Under the pieces are notes generated by a model, which was not told the origin of the DNA, searched no databases, and worked only from the letters and a program-made list of their open reading frames with translations. A stretch of 25,678 nt of DNA from IMG/VR virus record IMGVR_UViG_3300029955_000786, positions 1 through 25,678 of that record; one strand, given 5' to 3'. The position numbers and the translations under genes were made by a program. The stretch is from a virus. The stretch's first letter is position 1. Every line of letters starts with the position of its first letter. This document shows, one piece after another, positions 7,871 to 23,302 of this stretch.

Positions 7871-7902
7871 AAAGTGTCAAGTGTTCAGTGTTCAGTGTTC
7901 AG
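7871..7902 (-). repeat. tandem heptamer spacer (CTGAACA)3 CTTGACACTTT
   Basis: Read on the minus strand, three CTGAACA units and one CTTGACA unit are followed by CTTT, then TCT and the ATG of the 240-aa gene. The first CTGAACA supplies the TGA stop of the preceding gene (7899). The 32 bases are identical to plus-strand 20424-20455 and share 18 bases with 12126-12143. Confidence 0.9.
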
Positions 7903-8348
7903 CTCTGCAACCGGTGTTTCAGAAATTCCACCAGGCTGGCGCGGGAGATCCGGCCGGGGCCGAGCAATTGCAGTTCACCCGCCTTGATCAGCGCATGGAC
8001 GATTTGATGCGAGCAGACCCATTCGCATTCCATCCGGCCGGTGCGCACGGCCTCGCCCTGGCCGATGATGCCCATGATCACTTGATCCAGGGTCAGCTTG
8101 GCGGCAATTTCCGGGGCAATCAGTTCGGTCGCGTAGAAGCGGAGATCGCGACGGGAATCCAAGTTCACGGCGATGTTGAAGGCCCAGCGAATCTGGCCAT
8201 TGTCCACGCGCGCCAGAACGCTTTCCGCATCGCATTGCAGCGCCTGGCGCCAGGCCCCGATATCCACCATGACCGTGCGGACTTCCACATGGAGGGGCAA
8301 CCGCGCCTGGCGGGGCACTGAACTTGAAACTGAACACGTGTCATTCAT
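7899..8348 (-). CDS. excisionase/MerR-like DNA-binding protein, 149 aa
   Basis: A 149-residue protein whose last 35 residues resemble the winged-helix of excisionase-type proteins: SHQIVHALIKAGELQLLG, then GRISRASLVEFLKHRL. That matches the usual pattern of a recognition helix, a short hairpin and R-[IV]-x-x-x-x-L-x-x-[FY]-L. The rest is a mixed alpha/beta domain of unknown type (residues 20-110). The N-terminal 13 residues are Ser-rich and encoded by a variant of the heptamer repeat read in reverse, so the true start may lie a few codons downstream. A regulatory or DNA-architectural role is likely, but its target is unknown. Confidence 0.6.
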   Translation of the reverse strand: MNDTCSVSSSVPRQARLPLHVEVRTVMVDIGAWRQALQCDAESVLARVDNGQIRWAFNIAVNLDSRRDLRFYATELIAPEIAAKLTLDQVIMGIIGQGEAVRTGRMECEWVCSHQIVHALIKAGELQLLGPGRISRASLVEFLKHRLQS

Positions 8349-8616
8349 GGAGACTCCAATTGACTTTGTGGTCGCAGAGGAAGCAGGCCAAAAACCAGCA
8401 GCAAATCACCACCGGGATCCAGATCAGGGCCACGGCCACACAAGCCAGCAGGGCGATCAACCAGCGCTCCAGCTGATAGCAAAACAGCCGGACTTGCGCC
8501 GGGCGCTCGCGCCAGAGCTGCAGCAGCCAAGCCGCGCCCACGGCCAGGCCGATGGACACCAGCAGCAACGGCAGACACACCGCCAGGCGATCCACGACGG
8601 GGGCTAGGGCGTTCAT
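8341..8616 (-). CDS. small inner-membrane protein, two TM helices, 91 aa
   Basis: Two hydrophobic helices are visible, at residues about 11-32 (LAVCLPLLLVSIGLAVGAAW) and 53-80 (LIALLACVAVALIWIPVV and following). A short Arg-rich loop between them and a small charged C-terminus suggest an inner-membrane hairpin. Its start overlaps the previous gene by 4 nt and its end overlaps the next by 8 nt. Early phage membrane proteins of this size can act in superinfection exclusion or host take-over, but nothing here is specific. A holin is less likely because the gene is in the early operon. Confidence 0.65.
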   Translation of the reverse strand: MNALAPVVDRLAVCLPLLLVSIGLAVGAAWLLQLWRERPAQVRLFCYQLERWLIALLACVAVALIWIPVVICCWFLACFLCDHKVNWSLHE

Positions 8617-8807
8617 TTGGCACCTCCGATTGCCTCTAGGACGTTGGCGGCATGTGCCTCAGCCACCGCCGACCGGGTGCGTGCCAGTGCGCGTTTATCG
8701 CGCTGTTTAGCGAGCCCGGCGGCCTTCTGGTCGGCCAATACTTTGCGCTGATTCGCGCCGCAGTTCATGCATGTGCCTAGGTGCCAGGTGTGATAGTGCT
8801 GTTTCAT
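8613..8807 (-). CDS. small zinc-knuckle-like protein, 64 aa
   Basis: A 64-residue basic protein. Residues 4-20 contain HYHTWHLGTCMNCGA, whose Cys pair and nearby His could form one zinc site. The remaining residues form a Lys/Arg/Ala-rich helix. It is bounded by ATGA overlaps on both sides, so it is part of the same translation unit. No family recognised; nucleic-acid binding is plausible from charge and the Cys/His cluster. Confidence 0.6.
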   Translation of the reverse strand: MKQHYHTWHLGTCMNCGANQRKVLADQKAAGLAKQRDKRALARTRSAVAEAHAANVLEAIGGAK

Positions 8808-9076
8808 TGGCGTCCTTTGGAACTCGCAGGCGGGACGCCTGCGCTACGATGGGCCACCACGGCCATCACGTCGCTTAAGGCCACGCGGATATCGTCATGT
8901 CGGGAGCCCACGGCCGTGCGCGCGCGACGCTCGCACAATTCGCGCTCAGGGCCGGTCAACTGATAGGCATTCGCCGCCGAGTTGGCATGCGGCCCCCACA
9001 GCACGCCCTTGGGCGATGGCTGCGGAAACACCAGGATCACCCGCTTGGGCGCAAAGCCCGTTTCAGTCTTGCTCAT
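8804..9076 (-). CDS. unknown protein, 90 aa, C-terminus made by a palindromic repeat
   Basis: A 90-residue protein joined to its neighbours by ATGA overlaps. Residues 1-75 have mixed composition with PSPKGVLWGPHANSAANAYQ near 20-40. The last 14 residues (RSAGVPPASSKGRQ) are encoded by a dispersed GC-rich palindrome, so the original C-terminus was probably replaced or extended by repeat insertion. No function can be assigned. Confidence 0.6.
   Translation of the reverse strand: MSKTETGFAPKRVILVFPQPSPKGVLWGPHANSAANAYQLTGPERELCERRARTAVGSRHDDIRVALSDVMAVVAHRSAGVPPASSKGRQ
8819..8847. repeat. palindromic repeat copy B
   Basis: GGAACTC followed by stem GCAGGCG-GGA-CGCCTGC (8826-8842) and GCTAC. It encodes the C-terminus of the 90-aa minus-strand protein and lies just upstream of the ATG of the next gene at 8807. 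Two compensating changes relative to the other copies (AGGC/GCCT in place of GGGC/GCCC) keep the stem paired. Confidence 0.85.
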
Positions 9077-9318
9077 TTGGAGGCTCCTTTCTTGGGGTGG
9101 CAGACTTTACCCGGTCTGCCAGCGGGCCTAGGTGCGCTGTGGGACGCTAAATTGGATTCCCCTTTGATGGCCTGAAACCGGGCGTTCACCGCCGACTGGA
9201 TGCGCGATTCGCTGGCCCGGCTCAATTCAGGATCGCCTTTGGACAGGGCGAGCAACTCGCCCAGCTCCGCCGCCGTGGTGGCCATCTGGATTGCTTCGAG
9301 GTATTCGGCGGGTCTCAT
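9073..9318 (-). CDS. unknown protein, 81 aa
   Basis: An 81-residue protein, helical for its first 55 residues (EYLEAIQMATTAAELGELL and following) with a basic Pro/Lys-rich tail ending in KVCHPKKGASK. The start and stop both overlap neighbours by 4 nt. The basic tail could contact nucleic acid. No family recognised. Confidence 0.6.
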   Translation of the reverse strand: MRPAEYLEAIQMATTAAELGELLALSKGDPELSRASESRIQSAVNARFQAIKGESNLASHSAPRPAGRPGKVCHPKKGASK

Positions 9319-9735: not shown

Positions 9736-10283
9736 CTCATAGACTCGAAAATTTGAGGCTCAAAATGAACTGGACGTGGGATGAGCTTGGAGCGCAACTC
9801 GACCTCAAAAGGTCAATGCTTCACTACGTCCGCAAGGGCGAGCGCAACATGAGTGATCTTTCGATTCACCGGCTTGAGGAACTTGAAAAAGCTGCCGGCA
9901 TTGCGCTGGTGGCATCTGGTCCTTCTGACGCCCTATCCGGGGCTGATTCCAGTTCAACGGCGTATTTGGAGGATGCCTTTCTAGGCGAAGTCTCGGCGGA
10001 ATTGCAAAACCTCCGGGAAGCCGTATTGGCTTTGGAGCGCAAATTGGGCGGCGTCAGGGCTGCGCGTGAAATTAATAAAATGCGGGTTCATCGCAAATTT
10101 GAGCCCACGCAGGTTGCCTCAGGGCGGCAGAGCTTAGACGAGATCAAGGCCCAAATGGATGTGGCCACTGCGATGCCAAGGCCATCTAGCGTTAGTGCGG
10201 TGGCTCGTGCGGAGGATGAACCGCTTTTGGCCGCCTTGGAAGAGGCTGAGCCTGCTTCTCCATCACGACGGCGGAAACCATGA
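9726..10283 (+). CDS. XRE-family phage repressor, 185 aa
   Basis: From the GTG at 9726, residues 4-60 form an XRE/Cro-type helix-turn-helix: RLENLRLKMNWTWDELGAQL, then LKRSMLHYVRKGERNMS and a fourth helix RLEELEKAAGI. The rest (about 95-125) is a short coiled coil and a basic, low-complexity C-terminus ending SRRRKP. There is no S24/LexA-type protease domain, so induction by RecA-stimulated self-cleavage is not expected, as for Mu Repc. It diverges from the Ner-like gene over shared operators and most likely controls lysogeny. An ATG at 9764 is possible but would remove helix 1. Confidence 0.75.
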   Translation: MNISHRLENLRLKMNWTWDELGAQLDLKRSMLHYVRKGERNMSDLSIHRLEELEKAAGIALVASGPSDALSGADSSSTAYLEDAFLGEVSAELQNLREAVLALERKLGGVRAAREINKMRVHRKFEPTQVASGRQSLDEIKAQMDVATAMPRPSSVSAVARAEDEPLLAALEEAEPASPSRRRKP

Positions 10284-10407: not shown

Positions 10408-10597
10408 AAACCCCTCCTTTAACTATGGCCGAAATCTTTGATTTTGGAAGTTGCCTGGCCACGGTCCTGCGCTTTACCGGCGTCCAGGTTGCCATTAGGG
10501 TCAAGGCTTCAAAGGCCCGATCCTGCCTCAACAACTGGATGAACTGCTTGTCTTTTTCCCATTCCATTCTATTTTTCATACGCATCCATCCTCTCAT
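10397..10597 (-). CDS. possible small basic protein, 66 aa
   Basis: A minus-strand 66-codon frame with several Met codons at its beginning. An AGAGG lies suitably before the ATG at 10585. The protein has a charged helix (KDKQFIQLLRQDRAFEALTL) followed by MATWTPVKRRTVARQL and a short hydrophobic end. The WTP-x-[KR]-R-R motif is shared with the next minus-strand frame at 10192-10407, suggesting a tandem duplication. Upstream is an intergenic region with two palindromes. Function unknown. Confidence 0.5.
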   Translation of the reverse strand: MRGWMRMKNRMEWEKDKQFIQLLRQDRAFEALTLMATWTPVKRRTVARQLPKSKISAIVKGGVYAY

Positions 10598-10603
10598 GGG
10601 AGG

Positions 10604-10643
10604 TTGGACATTAGCTGTCCAAGGTCCGATTTTTGATCAAAAA
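10604..10643. promoter_or_regulatory. intergenic palindromes between divergent small genes
   Basis: Two perfect symmetric elements lie side by side: TTGGACA-TTAGC-TGTCCAA (10604-10622) and the 14-bp palindrome TTTTTGATCAAAAA (10630-10643). They sit between a leftward gene starting at 10597 and a rightward gene starting at 10658, where operators for a dimeric regulator would be expected. No clear -35/-10 pair can be read. Confidence 0.5.
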
Positions 10644-10657
10644 CTTATTCACCGGAT

Positions 10658-10870
10658 ATGCACTGGTTTGAGTACATAATTGTGATCGTCGCCGTGCCTC
10701 TTCTGGTTTGGATGTTGATTGGCTGGCTCAAGGCGGATTATCGTTGGGAAGAGGAAAAGCGGCTTGACCGGCTGTATGGCGGAAAGTCGCCCGAAACAAT
10801 CGAGCGGGAAAAAGCGTTGGCACTGCGGCGATGGAAAGGCAAAAATGAAAAATCAAAAACTCATGATTGA
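10658..10870 (+). CDS. small single-span membrane protein, 70 aa
   Basis: Residues 4-24 form one hydrophobic helix (FEYIIVIVAVPLLVWMLIGW), followed by a strongly charged cytosolic tail rich in Lys, Glu and Arg with RWEEEKRLDRLYGG. The stop TGA overlaps the next coding region, so the two are probably coupled. The topology (short N-terminus, one helix, charged tail) fits an inner-membrane anchored peptide. No family recognised. Confidence 0.55.
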   Translation: MHWFEYIIVIVAVPLLVWMLIGWLKADYRWEEEKRLDRLYGGKSPETIEREKALALRRWKGKNEKSKTHD

Positions 10871-11203: not shown

Positions 11204-11362
11204 TCACGTCTTTCTCCTGGCAGTGGCATGCTCGCGTCTGTGCAGGCCAATCGTCATCAACTCAGCAAATTTCCGGGTGGATTCCTCCAGCCCCGGCCGT
11301 CGCATGGGCTCCTTGACGAATTGGCCTTCGTGTACCCGTGCGGCGGTGTTTTTCGCCGCCAT
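11204..11362 (-). CDS. small basic protein of unknown function, 52 aa
   Basis: A minus-strand frame from ATG 11362 to TGA 11204, divergent from the outer-membrane protein gene. Its product is strongly charged and helical (PGLEESTRKFAELMTIGLHR near residues 23-42), with a basic end HATARRKT. Support for a real gene is the GATGGTT heptamer repeat directly before the ATG, the same arrangement seen before other starts here, and an AAGGAG before the internal Met20. It is too short for routine gene calling. A 45-codon GTG frame overlapping its stop (11207 to 11070) continues in the same direction but crosses the hairpins and is left uncalled. Confidence 0.45.
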   Translation of the reverse strand: MAAKNTAARVHEGQFVKEPMRRPGLEESTRKFAELMTIGLHRREHATARRKT

Positions 11363-11386
11363 CAACCATCAACCATCAAATCATCC
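11361..11386. repeat. ATCAACC tandem heptamer between two divergent start codons
   Basis: ATCAACC-ATCAACC-ATCAAAT-CATCC fills the space between the minus-strand ATG at 11362 and the plus-strand ATG at 11387, with no recognisable ribosome binding site on the plus side. It belongs to the set of short tandem repeats at gene junctions described in the findings. Confidence 0.8.
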
Positions 11387-11992
11387 ATGAAAAAAGTGTT
11401 CTGTGTTCAGTATTCAGTGTTCAGTCTGGCGCTCGCCGGGCTGTTGGCAATCTGCCAGCCGGCAGCGGCGCAAGTCGAGGCCACCTCCAGCAACGGGATC
11501 ATCACCATCACCGGTACCACCACGAATTCGGTGACCACGATCCCGAATTTCTTCACCACGGCCATGGCGTGGGCCACGGTCATTGATACCAACTACACCT
11601 GGGCCGGTGTCGGGCTCCAGTTTGAGGATGGCTATGCCCAGGAAACCGGCCTCGGCGCCGCCGACTACGTGCGCGCCCAATATAACTTCGGCCGCTGGAA
11701 CGTGGCCTTGGAAGGTCAATTCTTCGGCGTGGGGAGTTCCTTCAACGGATTCCTTGCGGGTGGCGGTTACGCCATCGTGCAGAAAGGGGATCTAAAGATC
11801 GAAGTCAATGGCCTGTTGGGTGAGCAGAAAGTCTCCGGATCCCGGGCGTTTGCGGCCCTGGGCGAAGTCAAGCTGACCAAGTTCATGACCAAGCTGACCT
11901 ATATGACCATCGGCCTGGGTGTGCCCTATGTGCAAAACCAGACCTTTGACGGCACGCCGGTATTCCGCACCGGCTTCGGCTTCATCTTCTGA
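11387..11992 (+). CDS. predicted outer-membrane beta-barrel protein, 201 aa
   Basis: From ATG 11387 the protein starts with a signal peptide: basic MKK, a hydrophobic core around residues 11-23, and PAAA|Q as cleavage site at 28/29. The mature part alternates polar and hydrophobic residues, is rich in Gly, Thr, Tyr and Phe, and ends FRTGFGFIF. A C-terminal Phe preceded by alternating aromatics is the recognition signal for BAM-dependent outer-membrane barrels. At about 173 mature residues it would be an 8-stranded barrel. Part of the signal peptide (FCVQYSVFS) is encoded by a GTGTTCAGT-type repeat. It is probably a lysogenic-conversion or lysis-associated gene, not a virion part. Confidence 0.7.
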   Translation: MKKVFCVQYSVFSLALAGLLAICQPAAAQVEATSSNGIITITGTTTNSVTTIPNFFTTAMAWATVIDTNYTWAGVGLQFEDGYAQETGLGAADYVRAQYNFGRWNVALEGQFFGVGSSFNGFLAGGGYAIVQKGDLKIEVNGLLGEQKVSGSRAFAALGEVKLTKFMTKLTYMTIGLGVPYVQNQTFDGTPVFRTGFGFIF

Positions 11993-12038: not shown

Positions 12039-12137
12039 ATGAGTACAGAGACCCAAGAAAAGGTTTGTCGGTGGTATCCGAAACAGGGTCGCGAGCAATG
12101 CGCATGCTCTCAAAAACCGTCAGCGCTGAACACTTGA
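12039..12137 (+). CDS. possible 32-aa Cys-containing peptide
   Basis: A 32-codon frame starts at ATG 12039 and ends with the TGA contributed by the CTTGACA unit of the repeat at 12126-12143. It has three Cys (one at residue 10, CAC at 22-24) and mixed charge. Ending on a repeat-supplied stop is what the 149-aa gene at 7899 also does, which is the main reason to list it. It could be chance. Confidence 0.3.
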   Translation: MSTETQEKVCRWYPKQGREQCACSQKPSALNT

Positions 12138-12143
12138 CACTTT
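12126..12143 (+). repeat. CTGAACACTTGACACTTT leader, third copy
   Basis: These 18 bases are identical to the 3' part of the 32-bp repeats at 7871-7902 (minus) and 20424-20455 (plus). As in those two, a start codon follows at once: here CC then GTG at 12146, the likely start of the lipase gene. Confidence 0.85.
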
Positions 12144-12145: not shown

Positions 12146-13000
12146 GTGAACCTCAACGCCAAACAATTCGACCTGTGCAACGCCCGGGCCTGTGCCCGCG
12201 CCAGTGCCGATGCCTACCAGCGCACCACGATCTCCGTGACCGGCACGGACACGCACGCCCTGATTGTTGAATCTCCGGACTGCATCATCATCGCATTCCG
12301 TGGCTCGGTGAGCATTCGCAATTGGATCACGGATGCGGAGTTTGCGCGGGTGACCGTGTTGGCGGGTATGACGACAACGGTGAAGATCCACGCCGGATTC
12401 AATGCGGCGATGAACAGCATTTTGGTGCCATTGATCACGACCGTGCGCGGCAAGCGTGGCGAACTCCAGATGGACGGCGGCGCGCCATCACAAAAGCCCA
12501 TCTTCCTCACTGGGCACAGCCTCGGCGGGGCATTGGCCGTTCTGGCCGCGATCGCCCTGCATCGCGCCGGATTCGAGATTACCCAGGTCTATACCTTCGG
12601 ACAGCCGCGTGTGGGCAACTCAGATTTCAAGGACTGGTACAATCTCTATCTGGGCTGGCGCACATTCCGCATGGTTTACCAGGAGGATATCGTCCCGCGC
12701 ATCCCGCACCTTCCGGCCTTTCGTGATCCCTACCGGCACGTGGGGCAGGAGGTGTTCGTTCCGAGCGTCAGCCCGGTTCAGACCATGGATGATCTCTGGT
12801 TCAACCCGCCGCTGTGGCGATTGCTGATGTCGGATATATGGGGACTTTACCGCGCCTGGCTGGTCTCCAAATTTGATGCCGCTCTGGATCCGGCCCGGGA
12901 CCACCATGTCGGCAACTACACTGGCACGCTAGCGGCCATCATCAATCCACCCATCCAGCAATCCAACAATCCATCAATCCAGACGGATGATTCTCGCTGA
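12146..13000 (+). CDS. class-3 (fungal-type) lipase / alpha-beta hydrolase
   Basis: From GTG 12146 the protein has 284 residues. It shows the class-3 lipase plan: IIAFRGS (oxyanion region), nucleophile elbow GHSLGG with Ser125, TFGQPRVGN, the acid QEDIVPRIP with Asp181, and a His in DHHVGNY (253/254). The family hydrolyses acylglycerols or phospholipids. No signal peptide is visible, so the enzyme would need lysis or a holin-like route to reach membranes. It lies where Mu-like phages often keep lysis genes, between a barrel protein and a membrane-anchored coiled coil. The last 17 residues are encoded by an AATCCANC octamer repeat. An earlier ATG at 12065 is less likely. Confidence 0.85.
   Translation: MNLNAKQFDLCNARACARASADAYQRTTISVTGTDTHALIVESPDCIIIAFRGSVSIRNWITDAEFARVTVLAGMTTTVKIHAGFNAAMNSILVPLITTVRGKRGELQMDGGAPSQKPIFLTGHSLGGALAVLAAIALHRAGFEITQVYTFGQPRVGNSDFKDWYNLYLGWRTFRMVYQEDIVPRIPHLPAFRDPYRHVGQEVFVPSVSPVQTMDDLWFNPPLWRLLMSDIWGLYRAWLVSKFDAALDPARDHHVGNYTGTLAAIINPPIQQSNNPSIQTDDSR
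12944..12983 (+). repeat. AATCCANC tandem octamer, five units
   Basis: Five consecutive 8-mers (AATCCACC, CATCCAGC, AATCCAAC, AATCCATC, AATCCAGA) encode the C-terminus of the lipase and end three bases before the ATG of the next gene at 12987. Confidence 0.85.
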
Positions 13001-13382: not shown

Positions 13383-13385
13383 ACC

Positions 13386-13412
13386 CATCAATCCATCATC
13401 CAATAATCCATT
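13386..13412 (+). repeat. AATCCATC-type tandem repeat before a start codon
   Basis: CATC-AATCCATC-ATCCAAT-AATCCATT occupies most of the gap between the stop at 13382 and the ATG at 13419. It is the same unit family as 12944-12983, with one unit shortened to 7 bases. Confidence 0.7.
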
Positions 13413-13673: not shown

Positions 13674-14360
13674 ATGAGCGCCAACCAACCCAACGCAGAA
13701 ATCATGGCCGTGCTGGAAGCCCACCGGCTGGATTGGCAGACCTTCAGCGAACTGCGCTCGGACAGTTACGAGCAAAAACTCGCGGCGGATTCGCCCGAAA
13801 AGCTGGATGCGTTTTACTCGCTCTTGTTTGCGCCGGGATTGTCGCTGGCGCAGATTGCGGCGCAATGCCCGGCGTGGCCAGGTGGGACCAAAAACGAGGG
13901 GGCACAGCCGACGCAGCGACTGTTATCCGAAGTGGCCACGCGCTGGAATGGGTTGCGGACGCTGGATGTGGTGGATCAAGTCTCCACACTGATGGAGAAG
14001 TTCAAAACCAAGATGGCTGGCCTGCCCAATGCGGCCACGGACAATGTGACCGATGGCCTGCTGGGCATGTTGTCGCAGGAATTGATGACCGCGAAACTGG
14101 AGGGAACCAGCCTCAGCCAACAAACGCGCGCGCTGGCACAGCTTTTGAAGAAACAGAAGCTCAACCAGGATCAGCAGGAACTGGATCTGGCGCGGGACAA
14201 ATTCGAGTTCGACGCGGCCAAGCTGGCCTTGGCAGCGGTGACCAGGCTAAAGACGATCTCGGCCAGCAAGCTGACGGATGTCGAGAAGATAGATCAGGCC
14301 CGCCGGGCGCTGTTTGGGGCATTGCCCGAGGACCAGCGTGTCGCTGGACCCCAATTATGA
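13674..14360 (+). CDS. candidate small terminase (DUF3486/gp27 position), 228 aa
   Basis: A 228-residue, mainly helical protein ending in ATGA overlap with the large terminase. Residues about 15-75 are a helical N-terminal region that includes GLSLAQIAAQCPAW, a helix-turn-helix-like segment. Residues 145-195 form a long coiled coil rich in Gln, Lys and Asp. In Mu-like phages the gene before the large terminase encodes gp27 (DUF3486), the small terminase that recognises DNA and assembles as a ring, and the domain layout agrees. Similarity at residue level is weak, so the assignment rests on context and length. Confidence 0.65.
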   Translation: MSANQPNAEIMAVLEAHRLDWQTFSELRSDSYEQKLAADSPEKLDAFYSLLFAPGLSLAQIAAQCPAWPGGTKNEGAQPTQRLLSEVATRWNGLRTLDVVDQVSTLMEKFKTKMAGLPNAATDNVTDGLLGMLSQELMTAKLEGTSLSQQTRALAQLLKKQKLNQDQQELDLARDKFEFDAAKLALAAVTRLKTISASKLTDVEKIDQARRALFGALPEDQRVAGPQL

Positions 14361-15877
14361 AATCCCCCAAAGCCAAGCCGGTGGGCTTCCGCCGGTACCA
14401 GAAGCCGATCTTCAATGATCGCGCCCTGGGCATCATCCTGCTGCACTGGTCCCGGCAGATCGGCAAGTCCTTCACCCTGGCATCGTGGGCGGTGGATCGC
14501 ATCCTCGACAAGCTCAAGACGAATGATTCGTGGTTAGTGACCGTCCTTTCCAACTCGCGGGACAACGGCGCAGAGTTCGTGATCAAAGCTCAAGAGGTTT
14601 GCAACAAGCTCGGGATATATATGCAGACCAGCGACGATTCTCCCGACCTGGTCTATGACAACATGAAGATGGAGGTCAGGATTACCGTTGAGATCAACGG
14701 CATCAAGCGCACCGGCCGCATCAAAGTGCTGGCGGCCAATCCGCGCACGGCGCGCGGTTTCAGCGGTGATTTGATCCTGGACGAATTTGCCTTCCACGAA
14801 AACAGTGCGGCCATTTGGGAAGCGGCCGAGCCGATCCTCTCCAGCAACCCCGAATTCCTCTGCCGCATCTCCAGCACGGGCAACGGCAAGCACAATATGT
14901 TTTTCCGCATGGCCAGCGGGGCGGGTCCGAATGACGGCACCCTGTTCAAGAGCACCGCCGGCTTCATGGTTTGCCGGGTCACGCGCACGGAAGCCTGGAA
15001 GATGGGCGTGAAGATATATGACGCCAACACACGTGCCCCGATCACTCCCGACCAGGCGCGGGCGGCCGCCCTGGACAAGCGGGCCTATGACCAAAATTAC
15101 GAATGTGCCTTTAACGATGAAAACATGTGCCTGCTCACCAATGAGCTGATCCAGCAAGCCATGCGCGAGGGCATTCCGATTGATGAACAGGCTTGGTCAG
15201 CGGTGAGCATCGCGCGCATGTTTCGCGCTGAGGGCAATCTATATCTCGGCCAGGATGTGGGTCGCAATCATGACTTGAGCGTGCAGGTGGTGGGCGAAAA
15301 GCGCGACAACGAATTGAAAGTCATCGCCATGTTGCGCATGGCGGGGATGCGGTTGCCCGATCAGCAGCGGCAACTGGAGATCGTGGGCAAGATGCCCCGC
15401 TTTCGCGAGGGTTGCATTGATATGACCGGCCTGGGCCTGGGCCTGGTTGAGTACGCCCAGGAAGAATCCTGGGGCCGAACCAAAATCCGGGGCATCAATT
15501 TTGCCACCACCGAACCCATCAATGATTTCATCCTGTCGGAAGGCCGCAAAGCGCCCACGGCGCGCGTGACTGAAAACATGGCCACGGCCACCCTGAAACG
15601 GTTTGAGGACAAAACCGTCACGTTCGAGGTGGAGCTGGATACCAACGCCATTGAAGATTTGCGCAAGCCCGAACGCATCACCAGCCCGGGCGGCCGCACC
15701 AGTATCGCTGCGGTCCGGGATGAGGCGGGCCATGCAGATCATTTCTGGGGCGTCTGCCTCATGATCCGGGCAGCGGAATCCAGCTCTGCCCCGGTGGCCT
15801 TTGCGAAATGCAGCATCACCCAATCCACTGTCGGCAAGATGGGTCTGGGCAAGGTGAAAGGAATGTCAATTTTATGA
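14357..15877 (+). CDS. terminase large subunit (Mu gp28-like)
   Basis: 506 residues from ATG 14357, coupled by ATGA to the previous gene. The ATPase domain has P-loop SRQIGKS (about 32-38) and Walker B LILDEFAFHE (139-148), followed by the coupling motif CRISSTGNG. The C-terminal RNase-H-like nuclease has acidic residues at Asp300 (GQDVGRNHD), Asp355 (CIDMTGLG) and Asp461 (HADHFWG). The enzyme cuts phage DNA and drives it into the prohead at the portal. Length and motif spacing fit Mu-type terminases. A long open frame continues upstream through the small-terminase gene but has no domain content and is ignored. Confidence 0.95.
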   Translation: MKSPKAKPVGFRRYQKPIFNDRALGIILLHWSRQIGKSFTLASWAVDRILDKLKTNDSWLVTVLSNSRDNGAEFVIKAQEVCNKLGIYMQTSDDSPDLVYDNMKMEVRITVEINGIKRTGRIKVLAANPRTARGFSGDLILDEFAFHENSAAIWEAAEPILSSNPEFLCRISSTGNGKHNMFFRMASGAGPNDGTLFKSTAGFMVCRVTRTEAWKMGVKIYDANTRAPITPDQARAAALDKRAYDQNYECAFNDENMCLLTNELIQQAMREGIPIDEQAWSAVSIARMFRAEGNLYLGQDVGRNHDLSVQVVGEKRDNELKVIAMLRMAGMRLPDQQRQLEIVGKMPRFREGCIDMTGLGLGLVEYAQEESWGRTKIRGINFATTEPINDFILSEGRKAPTARVTENMATATLKRFEDKTVTFEVELDTNAIEDLRKPERITSPGGRTSIAAVRDEAGHADHFWGVCLMIRAAESSSAPVAFAKCSITQSTVGKMGLGKVKGMSIL

Positions 15878-16056
15878 TTTCACGTATCACGCCGGGAATG
15901 CCCCAGGAGCGTTTTGGGGGTATAATGTGCCGTCCTCGCCTCCAAGGGCGGTTGTTTAAGCCATTTAAGCCGGGTTCCGGGCATCCTGGTGGCATGGTTG
16001 CACCCCGCCTTGCACCCCAATCGGCAATCAGCAATCGGCAATCGGCAATTTTATGA
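15874..16056 (+). CDS. possible 60-aa linker gene between terminase and portal
   Basis: ATG at 15874 overlaps the terminase stop, and the TGA at 16056 overlaps the portal ATG, both by ATGA; the frame exactly fills the gap. The product is basic, rich in Gly, Pro and Arg. Its last 11 residues (SAISNRQSAIL) are encoded by the CGGCAAT heptamer repeat. It may be real or may only keep translation coupled between terminase and portal. Confidence 0.4.
   Translation: MISRITPGMPQERFGGIMCRPRLQGRLFKPFKPGSGHPGGMVAPRLAPQSAISNRQSAIL
16022..16049 (+). repeat. CGGCAAT tandem heptamer, four units
   Basis: CGGCAAT-CAGCAAT-CGGCAAT-CGGCAAT is followed by TTT and the portal ATG at 16053. The unit differs in sequence from the CTGAACA and GCATCAC families but has the same length and place. 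Confidence 0.88.
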
Positions 16057-18569
16057 ACCCCTCCGGCATCTCTTTGTTCAACCAAGCCAGGATCGAATGG
16101 GCCATCCGGCTCAAATATTCGCCCATGCCGTCCCTGGACATGGACGTTCTGTCTGGCCAGTTGAATGCCTTCCGGATCGGGGATTTCCGCCAGATCGGCA
16201 AGACTTGGGAAGTGATGATGGAGCGCGATGGGGAACTGGCGGTCAATTCCGACAAGCGCAAGGCCGATGCGGCCGGCCTGGAATGGCAGATTGTCAGCGA
16301 CGGCTCGCCGGATGGCGACCGCCACGCGGCCAGCCTGCAGTATTGCTACGAGAATCTCACGGCCACGGAGGCGCTCGACCAGGATGTGACCGGCGGCGCA
16401 GATGAGCTGATCTACCAGGTGGCCTCCGCGATTGACTATAAATACAGCATCCATGAAATGCTCTTGCGTGTGGACAATGCGGCCGCGCGCGAGGTGACGG
16501 CGGAATTCCGGCACACGCCGCTGTGGTTCTTTGAGGCCCGGCGCGGGTATCTCGGTTACATGCCGCACATTTTTGATTTGTACGGCATTCCCTGCATCCA
16601 GGGCGAATGGCTCACGGCCGTCAACATCGGCTGGATGCGGCCACTCTCCATGGCTTATGCCATGAAGATGTTCCCATTGCGCGACTGGCTGCTGTTCTGC
16701 GCGCGCTACGGCAGTGGCTTTCTGGACGCCACCACGGATGCGCAGGTCAACTCACCGGAATGGGATCAGGCGCAAGAGGCGCTGAACACCCTGGCCAATG
16801 ACGGCGCGGTCTTGCACAACGCCGGCGTCAAGTTTGAGTTCCTGGAGCAGTCCGCGCGCAATTCGCTGCCGTTTCATCCCATCGTGGAAATGATCAACGG
16901 GCTGTATGCCAAGTGCTATCGCGGCGTGGATCTAGCCACCGGCTCGCGCGGCGCGGCCTCGGGCGAGGGTGGCACCAGCGGCGGATCCGGCAAAGCCCCT
17001 GTGGGCGCCTCGGTGCAAAAAGAGGAATCCGGCATTTTCCTGGTCAAAGACGCCAAATGGGTTACCGGCGTCTTCAATGAGCGCGTGGATCGCCCGATCA
17101 TTCGCTACCTGTACAATCAGGAGCCGCGCGCATGGTTCGTGCTGATGCCGCCGCTGAATGACACCAGCGGACAGGACCTGGCCGCGCTGCAAGGGTTGGT
17201 GCCGATGGGCTTCAAGGTGATGTTAAAGGAGGTTTACAAACGGTTCCGCTGGTCGGTGCCGGAAGTGGGTGAGCCGTGCCTGGCTGCTCCTGCCCCGCCG
17301 CCAGCCCCCGGGATTAATGGATCAATGGATGATGGATTGGCGGGCAAGGCAAAGCCGGCGGCGTCCGACGAAGATTCCCCCCAACCATCCAAAAATCCAC
17401 CAATCCAAAAATCCACGCCCCCGGCGGCCGTGGATGCGGCTGGTGAAGAAACCGACCCGCTGTTGAAGGGCGAGGAAAAGACGGCCGCGACCGCGCCGTC
17501 CCGGGTGCCAGAGAATACGCCCATTGGCGCGGGGGCGGATCCCCGGCGCAATCCTGGTCTGGCCAGGCCTGGCAATCCTTACTATGCGCAAACGGCCTCG
17601 CGCCAGATGCCCATTCCCACAAATCGGCAGGGCCAGCCCCAGGTGAACGATTCCGCCGCCTGGAGCGTCGCCGGCCTGCAATCGCCGGCGCTGGGCTATT
17701 CAATTCCCAATAGTGACGAGGGCATCATCCGAGTTCCCATTTCCCATCTGGAAACCCTCACGGCTGTCGGCTTGGGCAATTCGCGAGCTGCCCAGGCATT
17801 ACGACGGTCGGTGAAACTCGCGGGCCAGAGGCCCGCGCCACTATCCCTCGGCAATTCCAGTGAGCCCATCGTTCAATTGCGCACGGCCCATGTGGACGAT
17901 CTCGCCCCGGTGCGCCACGCCCTGGCCGCGATTGAAAACATCTCCGACGATGCGCTGTTCGTGAAAAAGCTGCGCGAGTTCGCGGCCGATCATGGCCCGC
18001 TCATTGCGCTCCTGGGCGACATCAACGCCTATCCCAAGGCGGCGAAAGTCTTGAATGACTTCACCACGGAACATCTGACGAGGGCTTTGACGCAAGGGCG
18101 CAAGGGCGCAAAAGCGCTGGCGAATGCGGGCGATATTCCAGGTCACGCATTTCGCGGGAATCAATATACGGCGGCAGAGCAAATAAATGACGTGCTGGAT
18201 GGCAAACGGGATGAGGCGGCATACGCGAAAGTTTCCCCAGACGTGGCCGCCAAGATCAAAGCGGCCACCGGCCTTGATGTCAGCGGCCATCAACATTTTG
18301 TTGATCACGACGCATTGGTCCACATTGACCGGCAGCATGGGGTGGGCAAGGAAGATCAAGAAGGTCATTTGCCGGTCACCAAGGAGGACATCCAGAAGAT
18401 TCCGCAAATTGTCAGCAACCCGGATTCGGTCACCGATGGTGGCAAGTCCGCGCGTGGGTTGCCAACCATCAAATACGCCAAGCGCTTCAAGGACACGACG
18501 TATTACGTCGAAGAGGTCTGGAGCAAAGACAAGCTGCTGGCGACAAAAACGATGTTCAAAACGAAGTAA
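16053..18569 (+). CDS. DUF935 portal protein with C-terminal BECR-type nuclease domain
   Basis: 838 residues, far longer than the roughly 500 of Mu gp29. Residues 1-420 are the DUF935 portal, the dodecameric ring through which DNA enters the head, with ELIYQVASAIDYKYSIHEML, FFEARRGYLGY, GSGFLDATTD and a typical Gly/Ser loop. A long Pro/Ala linker holds tandem octamers and a palindromic repeat. Residues 615-675 are the usual helical portal tail. GDIPGHAFRGNQYT follows at about 692-705. The last 125 residues resemble phage BECR (Barnase-EndoU-ColicinE5/D-RelE) nucleases: VHIDRQHG, VTKEDIQKIPQIVSNPDSV, YYVEEVW and a terminal LLATKTMFK. The fusion suggests an effector carried in the virion. Confidence 0.85.
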   Translation: MNPSGISLFNQARIEWAIRLKYSPMPSLDMDVLSGQLNAFRIGDFRQIGKTWEVMMERDGELAVNSDKRKADAAGLEWQIVSDGSPDGDRHAASLQYCYENLTATEALDQDVTGGADELIYQVASAIDYKYSIHEMLLRVDNAAAREVTAEFRHTPLWFFEARRGYLGYMPHIFDLYGIPCIQGEWLTAVNIGWMRPLSMAYAMKMFPLRDWLLFCARYGSGFLDATTDAQVNSPEWDQAQEALNTLANDGAVLHNAGVKFEFLEQSARNSLPFHPIVEMINGLYAKCYRGVDLATGSRGAASGEGGTSGGSGKAPVGASVQKEESGIFLVKDAKWVTGVFNERVDRPIIRYLYNQEPRAWFVLMPPLNDTSGQDLAALQGLVPMGFKVMLKEVYKRFRWSVPEVGEPCLAAPAPPPAPGINGSMDDGLAGKAKPAASDEDSPQPSKNPPIQKSTPPAAVDAAGEETDPLLKGEEKTAATAPSRVPENTPIGAGADPRRNPGLARPGNPYYAQTASRQMPIPTNRQGQPQVNDSAAWSVAGLQSPALGYSIPNSDEGIIRVPISHLETLTAVGLGNSRAAQALRRSVKLAGQRPAPLSLGNSSEPIVQLRTAHVDDLAPVRHALAAIENISDDALFVKKLREFAADHGPLIALLGDINAYPKAAKVLNDFTTEHLTRALTQGRKGAKALANAGDIPGHAFRGNQYTAAEQINDVLDGKRDEAAYAKVSPDVAAKIKAATGLDVSGHQHFVDHDALVHIDRQHGVGKEDQEGHLPVTKEDIQKIPQIVSNPDSVTDGGKSARGLPTIKYAKRFKDTTYYVEEVWSKDKLLATKTMFKTK
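17311..17414 (+). repeat. two octamer arrays in inverted orientation inside the portal linker
   Basis: GGATTAAT-GGATCAAT-GGATGAT-GGATTGG (17311-17340) and AACCATCC-AAAAATCC-ACCAATCC-AAAAATCC (17383-17414) are reverse-complement versions of the same AATCC family. They flank about 40 bases of unrelated linker sequence. Both stay in frame and encode low-complexity Pro/Asn/Ser/Gly stretches. Confidence 0.75.
17813..17842. repeat. palindromic repeat copy C, in frame in the portal
   Basis: GAAACTC precedes stem GCGGGCC-AGA-GGCCCGC (17820-17836), followed by GCCACTA. Read in the portal frame it gives KLAGQRPAPL, lying in the linker before the helical tail domain. Confidence 0.85.
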
Positions 18570-18649: not shown

Positions 18650-20143
18650 ATGAATCAAAAATCTTGCAATCAAACTCTCGGGAGCATCGCCCTGGCAAAC
18701 GCTTTCGATCCCGACCAGACGCGGGGCGAGGCAGGCAACTTCAGCGCCGATCTGGCCGATGCCATGGGGGCCGCGCATGCCGCCAGCGCCACCGCCCATG
18801 CCAAAGCGGACGCCGAATCCCATGCCCGGGCCGCCAAGCTGCACCGCGTGGCCGCCAAGCGCGCCACGGCGGAAAACAAACCCGCCCAGGCCACGACCCA
18901 CGAAGGCATCGCCCAGGGCCACGACGCCATGGCCGCGTGCTGCGCGGATGAACCGGTGCTGGCCAATGACTCCACGGATGCGATCGACAATGAGGGCTGG
19001 GCGCTGATCGCCCCGTTTGGCAACCATCCCAAAACGCGCGTCTTTACGGATGGCGGCCGGGTGAAGGAACAGAAGTTCATTCAAGTGCTGGACAATGAAT
19101 CCGCCGACGCCTTGCTGGACAATGAGAATTCTTTCTTCCGCAAACTGAAGCGCGCCCTGGTGGGCATCCCGGTTTACAAGGGCCACGGCGATTTGAACGA
19201 CCACGATCCCAAGGCACTGGCCAATGAGACGCAGAAAATCAAGCTGGGGGTTGTGGACCAGATCCGCAAAGCCGAACCCCGGCCTGGCCGCCCCGGGGGC
19301 ATTGAAGCGCATTTCACTTTGGACAATGACGGCGCTGAAGCCGTCGCGGCGGGCTGGAAGCTCCCGTCCGCTTTCTGGCTGGTGATGCCCATTGGCAATG
19401 AGGGCGACGCCATTCTGGCGCGTCCCTTCAAGTTGCTGTCGGTGGCGCTCACCCAGTTTCCAAATATTTCCGGCGTGGAGTCCCTGGCAAATCAGCGCGA
19501 AGCTGGTTCCCAATCACGGGCAGGGCACGCCGCGAGAACAGTAGACACCATGAAACAACTATTGATCGGGTGGCTCGCGGCTCAGGGCCTGGCCCTGGCA
19601 AACGATGCCACGGAACAGTCCGTGTTTGATGCGTTCCTCAAAGAGATGCAGACGCGCAGTTCCAGCATCTCCGCCCTGGGGAACGAAAAGAGCACGCTCA
19701 ACGGCAGCCTCACCACGCTGACGGCGGATCGCGACGCGCAGAAAAGGCGCGCGGATGAAACCGCCCAAGCCCTGGGCAACGAACAGACCGCCCGCAAGGC
19801 GGAGCGCAAATACGCGGCCAGCCTGGCCGTGGATCTGGCCATTCAACGCGGCAAGGTCACCGTGGCGGATCGCGAGACCAAAATCACCGCGCTGGAAAAC
19901 TCCGCAACCTTTGACGCGGAAGTGAAAGCGCTCTTGGAAGGCAAGCCCGTCATCAAGACGGAGGCGGTCAGCGGCCGGCAGTCCGCCGCGCTGGGCAATG
20001 AGGTGCAAGCCCTGCAAAACGAATACCAGCAGGCGTTCGCCACAGAGTTGGTATCCGCCGGCCAGGATCCCATCAAGGCGCATCAGAACATCATGCGCCT
20101 GCCCAAATATGCCGGCCTGGCCGCCAAGCTGGCACCGAAATAA
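18650..20143 (+). CDS. prohead protease and scaffold precursor (Mu I-like)
   Basis: 497 residues. Residues 1-100 are an Ala/His-rich helical leader. The protease domain (about 110-285) has VYKGHGDLN with His179 and KLPSAFWLV with Ser240, matching the His...Ser arrangement of Mu I-type prohead proteases, which mature the head by cleaving scaffold and sometimes capsid proteins. The C-terminal third is a coiled-coil scaffold (about 330-430) with a helical capsid-binding tail. An internal in-frame Met at residue 301 probably starts a separate scaffold product, as Z does within Mu I. The words LANE, LAND or LGNE recur eight times. Confident by layout and order. Confidence 0.82.
   Translation: MNQKSCNQTLGSIALANAFDPDQTRGEAGNFSADLADAMGAAHAASATAHAKADAESHARAAKLHRVAAKRATAENKPAQATTHEGIAQGHDAMAACCADEPVLANDSTDAIDNEGWALIAPFGNHPKTRVFTDGGRVKEQKFIQVLDNESADALLDNENSFFRKLKRALVGIPVYKGHGDLNDHDPKALANETQKIKLGVVDQIRKAEPRPGRPGGIEAHFTLDNDGAEAVAAGWKLPSAFWLVMPIGNEGDAILARPFKLLSVALTQFPNISGVESLANQREAGSQSRAGHAARTVDTMKQLLIGWLAAQGLALANDATEQSVFDAFLKEMQTRSSSISALGNEKSTLNGSLTTLTADRDAQKRRADETAQALGNEQTARKAERKYAASLAVDLAIQRGKVTVADRETKITALENSATFDAEVKALLEGKPVIKTEAVSGRQSAALGNEVQALQNEYQQAFATELVSAGQDPIKAHQNIMRLPKYAGLAAKLAPK
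19550..20143 (+). CDS. nested in-frame scaffold protein (Mu Z-like), 197 aa
   Basis: ATG 19550 is in frame 300 codons into the protease gene and begins MKQLLIGWLAAQGLALAN, just after the protease domain ends. The product would be only the coiled-coil scaffold part. Mu and lambda (C/Nu3) both make scaffold from such internal starts. No strong Shine-Dalgarno is visible upstream, so the internal start is inferred from domain boundaries. Confidence 0.55.
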   Translation: MKQLLIGWLAAQGLALANDATEQSVFDAFLKEMQTRSSSISALGNEKSTLNGSLTTLTADRDAQKRRADETAQALGNEQTARKAERKYAASLAVDLAIQRGKVTVADRETKITALENSATFDAEVKALLEGKPVIKTEAVSGRQSAALGNEVQALQNEYQQAFATELVSAGQDPIKAHQNIMRLPKYAGLAAKLAPK

Positions 20144-20176
20144 GGCCAATAACCCACGCAATCAAATCCATTATTT

Positions 20177-20422: not shown

Positions 20423-20423
20423 A

Positions 20424-20455
20424 CTGAACACTGAACACTGAACACTTGACACTTT
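20424..20455 (+). repeat. tandem heptamer spacer (CTGAACA)3 CTTGACACTTT, plus copy
   Basis: This is identical over 32 bases to the minus-strand copy at 7871-7902. It lies between the TAA at 20422 and the ATG at 20462 of the cement gene, with AACGAA between repeat and ATG. Confidence 0.92.
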
Positions 20456-20461
20456 AACGAA

Positions 20462-21034: not shown

Positions 21035-21078
21035 ACCGCCGTTAACCGACCTAAAATGCAGTTAAAGATCAAAATCAA

Positions 21079-22125
21079 ATGAAAATTGCCAAACCTTCCG
21101 CCCCGGCGGTCGCCCTGCACAACAGCGCCATTGCGCGCGCCTTGGGCAGCCAGGGCGTCGTCCTGGCCAATGACATGAACGATCTTCAGACGGGACAAAT
21201 TGTCCTGGCGAATGATTCCATCCTCCGCACGGCCGTGCCGATTGAGGAGCTCACGCTCTTCGCGGCCAGCTATGACTCCATGGTGGGCAACGGCCTGGTG
21301 CGGTTGCGCGATTTCCTCGCGCCGCCCCGCCCCACGCCCAGCCGCATCTTCCGGCTCACCACGTACAACGAAAACGAGCCGTGGGAAACGGTGGATTACA
21401 ACAAGGTAAAGCGCGGCATGCTCGCGGACTTCAGCGAGGTGCGCCAGCGCACGGCCAGCAAGAGCGATCTGCAAGGCTTCAATCGCGGCCTGTCCGTGAT
21501 CCTGGATCGCGACGAATTGAAGGACAAGCCCGAGTGGCAGCAGATGCACACCAAATGGCTCATTGACCTGCTGAATCGCGCTTCGATCCTGGAAACCATG
21601 GCCATCTATCAGGCGGCGGCCATCAACGCTGGTACGACTTGGGATAGCGCGGCCAATCCCGACCTGGACGTGCGCACCCGCATCCTCACGCTGGCCAATA
21701 CCACGGGCTTCTACCCGCAAAATGTGGCCTACGGTGACCAGGCCCACCTCAAGCGCCAGAATTCCTACGAATCGGCACTGACGGCCGGCTCGCTGGCGCG
21801 GGCCGGGCTGTTCACGGAACAGGAGTTGGCCACCGCCCTGGGCGTCAGCCAGGTGCTGATCAACGCGGAGCGTTACCAGAACACGAACACGACCAAGCAG
21901 GAAATCATTGGTCAGAACGTGCTTATCTTCACCGGCCTCAAAGATGCCGGCCCGATGGATCCCAGCAACATTGTGCGCCATGTGTTCAATGGCAACCTGG
22001 GCGGCGGCGAATATGCCGTTTACATCACCGATCTGGGCGTCAAGAAAGTGGCGCTCACGGTCGAGAATTACGAGCTGATCCACACCCAGCACACCACGGG
22101 CATTCAATTGCTAGCCGTCAGCTAA
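21079..22125 (+). CDS. major capsid protein
   Basis: 348 residues with HK97-fold characteristics. There is a helical, possibly removable N-terminal arm (residues 1-60, containing VVLAND and IVLAND). A central region has a long helix DLQGFNRGLSVILDRDELKD and WLIDLLNRASILETMAIYQA, and the C-terminal sheet has VYITDLGVKKVALTVENYELI. Order after protease, scaffold and cement genes, and length, are right for the coat protein of a Mu-like or lambda-like phage. I see no close resemblance to Mu T itself, so this may be a different coat family combined with Mu-type genes. Confidence 0.8.
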   Translation: MKIAKPSAPAVALHNSAIARALGSQGVVLANDMNDLQTGQIVLANDSILRTAVPIEELTLFAASYDSMVGNGLVRLRDFLAPPRPTPSRIFRLTTYNENEPWETVDYNKVKRGMLADFSEVRQRTASKSDLQGFNRGLSVILDRDELKDKPEWQQMHTKWLIDLLNRASILETMAIYQAAAINAGTTWDSAANPDLDVRTRILTLANTTGFYPQNVAYGDQAHLKRQNSYESALTAGSLARAGLFTEQELATALGVSQVLINAERYQNTNTTKQEIIGQNVLIFTGLKDAGPMDPSNIVRHVFNGNLGGGEYAVYITDLGVKKVALTVENYELIHTQHTTGIQLLAVS

Positions 22126-22146
22126 CCAAAAGGCGAATGATAACCT

Positions 22147-22177
22147 TGTGGCACGGGCCTTCCGGCCCGTGCGACTC
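22147..22177. repeat. palindromic repeat copy D
   Basis: Stem GCACGGGCC-TTCC-GGCCCGTGC (22151-22172), followed by GACTCAAAA. It lies in the gap between the capsid and secreted-protein genes and is in the opposite orientation to copies A-C. In the RNA it would form a stable 9-bp hairpin after the capsid gene, possibly lowering downstream expression. Confidence 0.85.
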
Positions 22178-22200
22178 AAAAACAAATAAATATCAATATT

Positions 22201-22749
22201 ATGAATCGCTCCACGCATCCCGCATCCCGCACTCCCCGCCGCTTGCTTCTGGCGGCCAGCCTGACGTGCGGGCTCGCCATCTCCGCCTCCGCGCAGGTCG
22301 GCACTTACGTTGCTCCCCGCATCAACACCGTGTTCAACCAGCCGGTGAGCAATACCGTCACCTACACGTTCTATGGCACCAACTGGCTCAACATGACCGG
22401 CTGGCACAACATGAACTGGATATTCAGCGAATATGCCTATGGCCCGGGCGGCACCAACCAGATTGGCACCAACCAGCTCGCGGTTAACCTGTACGGCAGT
22501 CCCGGCAACGGCAACAACTACACCAATGCTGCGGCCGGAACGAACTTCGTTTTCATTCCGACCCCGCTGCAAAATTGGACCAACAACCTCACTGCCAGCA
22601 ACACGCTGGCGGCCGGGTTCTGGACCAACACGACCCAGAATCTGGGTGATGGGTTCCTGTGGTTCAAGGGTGCGGTCACGGTGGGCTGCACGAACGCCGC
22701 CGTTTCCAACCAGTTCTACCTGCAAATTGACCAGATCATCACCCCTTGA
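22201..22749 (+). CDS. secreted Asn/Thr/Gly-rich protein with signal peptide, 182 aa
   Basis: The N-terminus is a Sec signal peptide: basic TPRR, a hydrophobic core LLLAASLTCGLAISA and cleavage site ASA|Q at 31/32. The mature part is rich in Asn, Thr, Gly, Trp and Phe, with repeated TN words (NQPVSNTVTYTFYGTNW, GTNQIGTNQLAV, NWTNNLTASN), suggesting a beta-structured extracellular or envelope protein. It lies between capsid and head-tail genes but should be exported, so it is probably a cargo (moron) gene. The signal peptide begins with a stretch encoded by GCATCCC heptamers. No family recognised. Confidence 0.7.
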   Translation: MNRSTHPASRTPRRLLLAASLTCGLAISASAQVGTYVAPRINTVFNQPVSNTVTYTFYGTNWLNMTGWHNMNWIFSEYAYGPGGTNQIGTNQLAVNLYGSPGNGNNYTNAAAGTNFVFIPTPLQNWTNNLTASNTLAAGFWTNTTQNLGDGFLWFKGAVTVGCTNAAVSNQFYLQIDQIITP

Positions 22750-22756
22750 CTGACGA

Positions 22757-22808
22757 GTGATGCGTGATGCGTGCAAACGCGCATCACGCATCACGAATTA
22801 CGCATCAC
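22757..22808 (+). repeat. 15-bp hairpin and GCATCAC tandem heptamers
   Basis: GTGATGCGTGATGCG (22757-22771) and its perfect complement (22780-22794) form a 15-bp stem with an 8-nt loop. The second arm is part of a GCATCAC-GCATCAC-GAATTAC-GCATCAC heptamer array (22781-22808). It follows the stop at 22749 and has no T tract, so it is more likely a processing or stabilising hairpin than a terminator. Confidence 0.85.
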
Positions 22809-22847
22809 AAATATGAATCCTTACTTGGAACCTTGGGAGAGAAATAT

Positions 22848-23282
22848 ATGACCATCTGGTCCGCACTCACCACAACGGAAGTCCTCGCGCAATTCAACGA
22901 TAGCGAGACGACGGCTTACGACACATCCAAAGGCGATTCCACCCAGGCGTCGCTGACGGACATCATCACCAAGGTGTCGGACCAAATCGTCCAGGCATAT
23001 GCGGATGCCGGCCGGTTGATTGACCCCGTCACAGGCCTTGCGCCCGCAAATGGCACCATTCCGCCAGGGGAAAAGAATCGCGCGATCGCGCTGGTGCGCT
23101 GGAAATATCTGCTCGCCATCCCGACCGGCAAGTCTCTGGCCGAGAATCGCGCGGAGGAAGCCAAAAAGGCCGAGGAATATTTGCTCCTGGTCGCCCAGCG
23201 CAAATTCAAATTCAGCGGCGTGGCCACCAAACCCGGCCGCCGCCTGCACCCCTTCAGTTTCGACGCCATCGGCCAGACATAA
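22848..23282 (+). CDS. head-tail connector, Mu gp36/J-like (DUF1320 type), 144 aa
   Basis: The start at 22848 is preceded by GGGAGAG at good spacing, one of the few strong ribosome binding sites here. The protein has the DUF1320 plan: an N-terminal ALTTTEVLAQFND helix, SLTDIITKVSDQIVQAYADA, an IPPGEKNRAIALVRWKYLL helix and a charged helical end AEEAKKAEEYLLLVAQRK. In Mu, gp36 lies between capsid and tail genes and helps join head and tail. A 12-codon frame (22813-22851) overlaps the ATG and may be a coupling leader. Confidence 0.72.
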   Translation: MTIWSALTTTEVLAQFNDSETTAYDTSKGDSTQASLTDIITKVSDQIVQAYADAGRLIDPVTGLAPANGTIPPGEKNRAIALVRWKYLLAIPTGKSLAENRAEEAKKAEEYLLLVAQRKFKFSGVATKPGRRLHPFSFDAIGQT

Positions 23283-23302
23283 TCACGCATCACGCATCCC
23301 GC
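23283..23302 (+). repeat. TCACGCA heptamers bridging stop and start codons
   Basis: TCACGCA-TCACGCA-TCCCGCA begins directly after the TAA at 23282. Its final A is the first base of the ATG at 23303, so the repeat fills the entire intergenic space. No Shine-Dalgarno sequence is present. Confidence 0.88.

Follow-up and report, generated by a model that had tools for sequence, protein, structure and literature searches.

We analyzed a stretch of viral DNA 25,678 bases long (IMG/VR record IMGVR_UViG_3300029955_000786; the whole stretch is referred to as the window) in which many spacers between genes are filled with short tandem repeats, most of them built from 7-nt units. The window encodes a transposase-like protein (5091–7127, minus strand; match phrog_310), a Mu-type terminase (14357–15877; phrog_2), a portal protein (16053–18569; phrog_113) and a Mu-like protease (18650–20143; PF10123 Mu-like_Pro), together the gene set of a Mu-like transposable phage, as well as a DnaB helicase (319–1746, minus strand). 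Its relatives match Portal_Mu (PF06074), and the window is a Mu-like phage. Homologues of the portal and of the protein encoded at 21079–22125 are found in other virus contigs and in metagenome-assembled genomes (MAGs), one of them named Verrucomicrobia subdivision 3. In the host search the portal alignment led to two MAGs and the terminase query gave no match; the host probably belongs to the Verrucomicrobiota. Genes were called throughout with a simple codon-usage script written for this analysis, so single start positions are uncertain, and some starts were chosen by hand (11387, for its clear signal peptide, and 12146, for its leader copy).

Arrays were located with Tandem Repeats Finder, by direct reading and by an exact-run search. 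Exact heptamer runs are located at 7880, 11359, 16031, 20423 and 22214, and shorter or imperfect runs at 11395, 22757, 22780 and 23282 (Table 1). The six main heptamer arrays (7880, 11359, 16018, 20423, 22780 and 23282) each end 0–15 nt ahead of a start codon; an octamer array at 18091 and the heptamer array at 22214 are intragenic. Under one scoring rule the window contains 10 arrays of period 7 or 8, compared with 1 in total over 20 order-2 Markov shuffles. Six of these 10 arrays fall mostly in the 30 nt ahead of a start codon, positions that together make up 3.5% of the window (binomial p = 3e-7, with starts partly hand-curated). Unit length 7 and position are clearly not due to chance. An earlier note on this DNA, made from the letters alone, had described tandem 7–8-mers at gene junctions and proposed shuffled controls and start-codon placement as checks; in the window both bear the arrays out, and 12126–12143 turns out to be one unit, not a tandem array. 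The repeats reported there at 12944 and 13386 do precede the ATGs at 12987 and 13419 but are degenerate period-8 arrays, the first of them inside the upstream gene, which extends to 13000.

One leader, (CTGAACA)n and then CTTGACACTTT, accounts for the three longest dispersed repeats of the window. Its copies are located 2–6 nt before an ATG, a GTG and an ATG, respectively (7871–7902 on the minus strand, 12126–12143 and 20424–20455). The (CTGAACA)3 run at 7880–7902 (minus) is found again at 20423–20446, and 7871–7902 and 20424–20455 form a perfect inverted copy of 32 nt that extends beyond the array. The earlier claim of a different unit at each place is correct only in part, as CTGAACA is reused. 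The minus-strand copy also provides the TGA stop of the gene at 7899–8318(-), and the gene running from GTG 12146 to 13000 is lipase-like (lipase match). The 17–18-nt core of the leader is absent from 15 genomes of the host class and from viral contigs except the window's twin, and we rejected on these counts that it is a host word; confined to the window and its twin, the leader has probably spread inside its own phage lineage. In the gene at 11387–11992, an antisense CTGAACA array, with units reading AGTGTTC, codes for the signal-peptide core MKKVFCVQYSVFSLALAG, so that one unit can serve as spacer or as coding sequence. The inverted arrays at 22757–22773 and 22780–22796 are predicted to pair as a hairpin of 17 bp (-32.2 kcal/mol, z = -5). 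At this junction (22757–22796) two relatives, L003 and L010, also show inverted sequences, which are GC-rich and of different makeup.

Table 1. Repeat arrays, leader elements and an associated short open reading frame (ORF) in the window
Feature	Position	Strand	Context
Non-array leader ACGAAGGCCAAAT-ATGA, copy 1	4695–4711	minus	gene start 4698-
Non-array leader ACGAAGGCCAAAT-ATGA, copy 2	5024–5040	minus	gene start 5027-
Leader element, (CTGAACA)3 then CTTGACACTTT	7871–7902	minus	ends 3 nt before ATG 7867(-)
(CCATCAA)3	11359–11379	plus	7 nt before ATG 11387 of signal-peptide protein 11387–11992
Four imperfect CTGAACA units, antisense	11395–11425	minus	within signal-peptide coding sequence MKKVFCVQYSVFSLALAG
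One CTGAACA unit + CTTGACACTTT	12126–12143	plus	2 nt before in-frame GTG 12146
Degenerate CAATCCA/CAATCCAT, period 8	12943–12982	plus	in 3' end of lipase-like gene, 4 nt before ATG 12987
Degenerate CCATCAAT array, period 8	13385–13411	plus	between stop 13382 and ATG 13419
(CAATCGG)4.6	16018–16049	plus	ends 3 nt before portal ATG 16053
Leader element, (ACTGAAC)3 + CTTGACACTTT	20423–20455	plus	most of gap between stop 20422 and ATG 20462
(GTGATGC)2.4	22757–22773	plus	left arm of 17-bp hairpin
(CGCATCA)4	22780–22808	plus	first 17 nt form right hairpin arm; 4 nt before ATG 22813
12-codon ORF MNPYLEPWERNI	22813–22851	plus	directly after hairpin array; TGA overlaps ATG 22848 of next gene
(ATCACGC)3	23282–23304	plus	whole gap between stop 23282 and ATG 23303

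Heptamer arrays in relatives, other viruses and host-class genomes

A set of nine non-redundant Mu-like relatives, including the window, was picked by portal sequence and not by repeats. This set contains 23 period-7 arrays compared with 13 for all other periods from 5 to 12 combined. For 15 of these 23, the array centre falls in the 60 nt ahead of a start, and such positions cover 7.4% of the sequence; these numbers are small, and the comparison loci described below are pattern-selected. The arrays are unevenly spread, with the window and L006 richest (L006 has 11 arrays with seven different units) and L005, L011 and L012 at zero.

Pattern scans of IMG/VR returned 18 stretches with (CTGAACA)3 and 39 with (AAAGCAG)3, and 3 with the reversed control. 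Because these loci were chosen by heptamers their array density is biased, but their other units were not directly selected, and with the query unit excluded the AAAGCAG-selected loci contain 58 period-7 arrays versus 16 of other periods. Upstream of starts, the viral loci carry 39 distinct sense units. AAAGCAG, CTGAACA and AAACGTG recur in unrelated phages. Conservation of unit length but not of unit sequence, as put forward in the earlier note, thus extends beyond the window with period 7 dominant, and it favors, as the note had also suggested, a process generating 7-nt repeats over a single protein-binding site.

Arrays track lineage and not phage gene family. L158, L130, L172 and L175 (plus the near-twin L151) have 2 to 11 arrays, whereas L158-type homologues with 52–61% amino acid identity in the query protein have 0–1, and we rejected a tie to one phage gene family on this ground. 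We likewise rejected the arrays as a hallmark of Mu-like prophages, as of 49 records, most of them retrieved by array pattern, only 8 have a Mu portal. Mu-like prophage regions from 8 other genomes of the class hold 2 arrays in 176 kb, compared with none in 186 kb of control sequence. In genome G057, one Mu-like prophage stretch (L060; contig 1, 1–20000) has 5 of the 8 arrays found in 356 kb (5 in 20 kb versus 3 in 336 kb, p = 3e-5), a post hoc comparison on a single element. This prophage, a Mu-like one other than the window, has MuB-like, Gam-like, Mu protease and major head matches, and its five arrays are of period 7.

(AAAGCAG)3 occurs in 9 of 285 genomes of the class (reversed control, 0/285) and (CTGAACA)3 in 3 of 188. 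Chromosome stretches totalling 1.77 Mb, partly picked for arrays, contain 21 arrays in called genes, 16 at other intergenic positions and 10 upstream of starts. Chromosomal array density is lineage-dependent, at 0–10 per 100 kb. The premise of the earlier note that arrays favor junctions over gene interiors thus holds for phages, where they concentrate in co-directional intercistronic gaps, but does not carry over to host chromosomes, where they are also intragenic or at other intergenic positions. A polysaccharide-synthesis region of genome G066 (contig 4, 30–70 kb; L231 and L232) is crowded with arrays of period 7 and period 8, including one of about 118 bp (AGTCCCAA); three other 20-kb stretches of this genome have no period-7 arrays.

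Turnover at orthologous junctions

Comparison of relatives that are 91–95% identical reveals copy-number change in whole units. The AAAGGCT array of L130 and L158 (about 91% identical) differs by 14 bp, that is two whole units, and at a second site, with 91% identical flanks, the unit sequence differs as well (AAAGCAGx3 in one, AATGCAGx5.7 in the other). L105 and L119 have about 3.7 and 5 CTGAACA units, respectively. At the junction of gene 23303 the window has ATCACGCx3 and L010 has TTTGAGAx3, and L003, L004, L005 and L011 show a gap of 0–1 nt or a one-base overlap. The junction before 20462 has different arrays in the window and in L006, and in most others a plain A/C-rich spacer of similar length (32–75 nt). 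Most relatives have the same junctions and no arrays.

Properties of spacers with and without arrays

We compared spacers of 15–100 nt with arrays (n = 12) and without arrays (n = 78) in Mu-like phages. Predicted folding energies are -2.2 and -3.1 kcal/mol, respectively (p = 0.74, and 0.15 in a second comparison; the other viral loci behave likewise), whereas intragenic segments of equal length are predicted to fold to -12.7 kcal/mol (p = 2e-20 versus spacers). An initial difference suggesting that array spacers are more open than other spacers was gone when length-similar spacers were used, and most array regions of the window are predicted to fold no better than their own shuffles. Shine-Dalgarno (SD) motifs are present in 8% of array and 10% of non-array spacers (24% and 29% in other viral loci), which is not a clear difference. 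SD-like motifs upstream of starts are also rare in related host-class genomes (9–12% in G134, G149 and G157), and SD-scarce Verrucomicrobia have been described (PMC10783764). Selection of units for low self-folding is unsupported (39 sense units compared with their own letter permutations, p = 0.16), and we rejected the notion that units serve as all-frame stop codons, since each strand shows stop triplets in 14 of the 39 units. We conclude that spacers are kept open, A-rich and SD-free and that an array is one among several routes to this state. The junction-specific function envisaged in the earlier note is possible but unsupported: spacers with and without arrays show no clear difference, folding and stops reveal no selection on the unit, and most relatives lack arrays at these junctions.

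Discussion

Dispersed intergenic heptanucleotide tandem repeats are known as short tandemly repeated repetitive (STRR) sequences from heterocystous cyanobacteria, which use few fixed units in other hosts. According to Mrazek et al. (2007), as cited in PMC4679880, long simple sequence repeats (LSSRs) are tandem 5–11-nt units beyond chance for which slippage was proposed; heptanucleotides are their most abundant class in most prokaryotic genomes, and 7 nt was suggested as a polymerase contact length. Our arrays likewise run beyond chance, with the heptanucleotide as the commonest unit length, and change copy number in whole units in L130/L158 and L105/L119, although not between the window and its twin. 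Unlike LSSRs as described there, they are dense in single phage genomes, have many units per genome and are mostly intercistronic. The TAACTGA direct repeats of marine Beggiatoaceae, some Cyanobacteria and Bacteroidetes (MacGregor 2015, PMC4679880) resemble them in being heptamers in 2–6 copies, mostly right before starts, some of which overlap the preceding ORF at its end; directional placement and few SD motifs are common to both. There, however, one fixed unit dominates a genome and related heptamers are rarely repeated, whereas here we find dozens of units, replaced between relatives and located in phages (at least four in the window, seven in L006), and no TAACTGA array was found in the window. 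Tandem repeats of Borgs (PMC9879509) also lie on extrachromosomal elements, in intergenic or ORF-end positions, and comprise many different units. Their A enrichment, fast evolution, independent formation and rarity in the host chromosome may be shared by our arrays, which are A-enriched in phages, have different units at one junction and reach 0–10 per 100 kb in chromosomes. Borg repeats have varied unit lengths, in multiples of three within ORFs, whereas our arrays are short and have units of ∼7 nt throughout, with those inside genes mostly heptamers as well. The GGGNATC repeats of Xanthomonas and Nostoc (PMC4692102) are also non-coding heptamers, with about four units preferred, near stops and starts of co-directional ORFs, but represent one G-rich, quadruplex-forming unit type; the units found here are mostly A-rich and not quadruplex candidates. 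The window fits the LSSR class as a dense phage-borne variant and differs from TAACTGA and from Borg repeats in a tested feature. The novelty that the earlier note saw in intercistronic heptamers was overstated, as heptanucleotides are the commonest long prokaryotic repeat unit and start-proximal heptamers have been published (PMC4679880); for heptamers in phage spacers, our literature search, of partial coverage, returned no report.

With slightly better than even confidence, we favor the interpretation that the arrays are heptanucleotide LSSRs arising by slippage or duplication in loosely constrained, unstructured, SD-poor spacers, with some leader copying. Replication slippage, or a similar duplication of short repeats, would grow, shrink and homogenize arrays in whole 7-nt units at a rate that may depend on host lineage, and arrays would be retained where the phage tolerates them, in short intercistronic spacers. 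Each site would expand whatever word is already present, so units differ between sites. The spacers of this phage family are A-rich, G/T-poor, nearly SD-free and unstructured, and it seems to be composition and openness, not sequence, that are kept; initiation from them may be SD-independent. Some whole leaders, array and flank together, have in addition spread by copying between genes within the phage. Several findings weigh against this interpretation. Slippage alone gives no reason for 7 over 6 or 8, and the 32-nt copy on the opposite strand requires an extra copying step. The unit-number variation that the earlier note proposed to look for is seen between relatives but not between near-identical contigs (window/L002, L006/L007), whose unit numbers are identical and show no sign of rapid switching, although the sites from which these contigs derive may be identical or related. 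For a comparison with phase-variable contingency loci, whose unit number switches between individuals and alters expression, these pairs give identical arrays. Arrays are nearer to starts than random placement in the gap would give (11 of 17 within 20 nt versus 27% expected, p = 0.0014; in a second set 30 of 73 versus 30%, p = 0.026), and phage arrays are A-biased on the sense strand (0.41 A, 0.15–0.18 T), whereas chromosomal arrays are not (0.25 A, 0.29 T). Start proximity and this phage-only strand bias would allow for some selection on position or strand.

Those last findings would also suit arrays acting as functional spacers for translation initiation or reinitiation, in which an open, A-rich landing platform is offered to the ribosome and unit number tunes the stop-to-start distance. 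The arrays do fill stop–start gaps near starts in an SD-poor setting, most of those in the window fold no better than shuffles, and unit number differs among relatives. We nevertheless regard this function as rather unlikely: non-array spacers at the same junctions share these properties, most relatives do without arrays, arrays also occur within genes, there is no selection at the level of the unit, and in the Mu-like set 10 of 13 arrays are nearer to the upstream stop than to the start (p = 0.007). The reuse of AAAGCAG, CTGAACA and AAACGTG in unrelated phages and the location before starts could alternatively point to target sites of an RNA- or DNA-binding regulator with sequence specificity, a role previously suggested for TAACTGA in Beggiatoaceae. 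This is very unlikely given the number of different units within the window and within L006, the different units at orthologous junctions, and the presence of CTGAACA in sense spacers as well as in antisense coding sequence.

A dedicated 7-nt writer acting on mobile DNA would explain why dozens of unrelated units and phages all show unit length 7; it might be a polymerase or end-processing activity that works in a 7-nt register, or it might copy from a template. Inverted heptamer pairs (window 22757–22808, L142 and three other loci) and the concentration of arrays in one G057 Mu-like prophage and in the G066 polysaccharide gene region are in line with it. We consider such an activity improbable, as the other Mu-like prophages of the class are almost empty, no candidate gene was found, the G057 comparison is post hoc and concerns one element, and polymerase slippage has been given as the cause of the heptanucleotide excess reported in distant prokaryotes (Mrazek et al. 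2007, as cited in PMC4679880). A metagenome-derived contig with short repeats is prone to misassembly, but an artefact of assembly or sequencing, or chance, is almost certainly not the explanation: a second IMG/VR record matches the window at 100% identity over 13.8 kb, a span with three exact heptamer arrays, shuffles are almost empty, and the features recur in many independent contigs and MAGs. More speculatively, and in our estimate improbably, SD-poor Verrucomicrobiota and their phages might share a lineage-specific process that writes and rewrites direct or inverted 7-nt tandem units in mobile DNA, which phages would then copy between genes as leaders, in the form of open spacers and hairpins.

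The heptanucleotide excess has been known since 2007 with no accepted reason for the number 7. The phages described here make this question testable, with many independent units in one small genome and other units, or none, at the same junction in relatives. The generator, which always yields 7, becomes separable from what selection keeps, namely open, SD-free spacers. Start regions filled with repeats need not be binding sites, and the arrays bear on how genes start in SD-poor Verrucomicrobiota.

Additional leader and repeat elements

The next-longest dispersed repeat of the window after the CTGAACA leader is a 17-nt non-array leader, ACGAAGGCCAAATATGA (ACGAAGGCCAAAT-ATGA), duplicated at two adjacent minus-strand genes. 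The 12-codon ORF at 22813–22851 (MNPYLEPWERNI) is a candidate for a possible coupled leader peptide. L142 carries several copies of a dispersed intergenic element of ∼100 bp (341–607, 7924–8021 and 10528–10747), built from inverted heptamers flanking a short palindrome, (AGTCGAG)n-GCCAGCNNGCTGGC-(CTTCGAC)n. In L006, two intergenic copies of a ∼50-bp sequence (GGACGCGTTGGGGG, then TTGGGGTGCAATCCATGCC) are found at 9787–9860 and 16131–16190, adjoining heptamer arrays.

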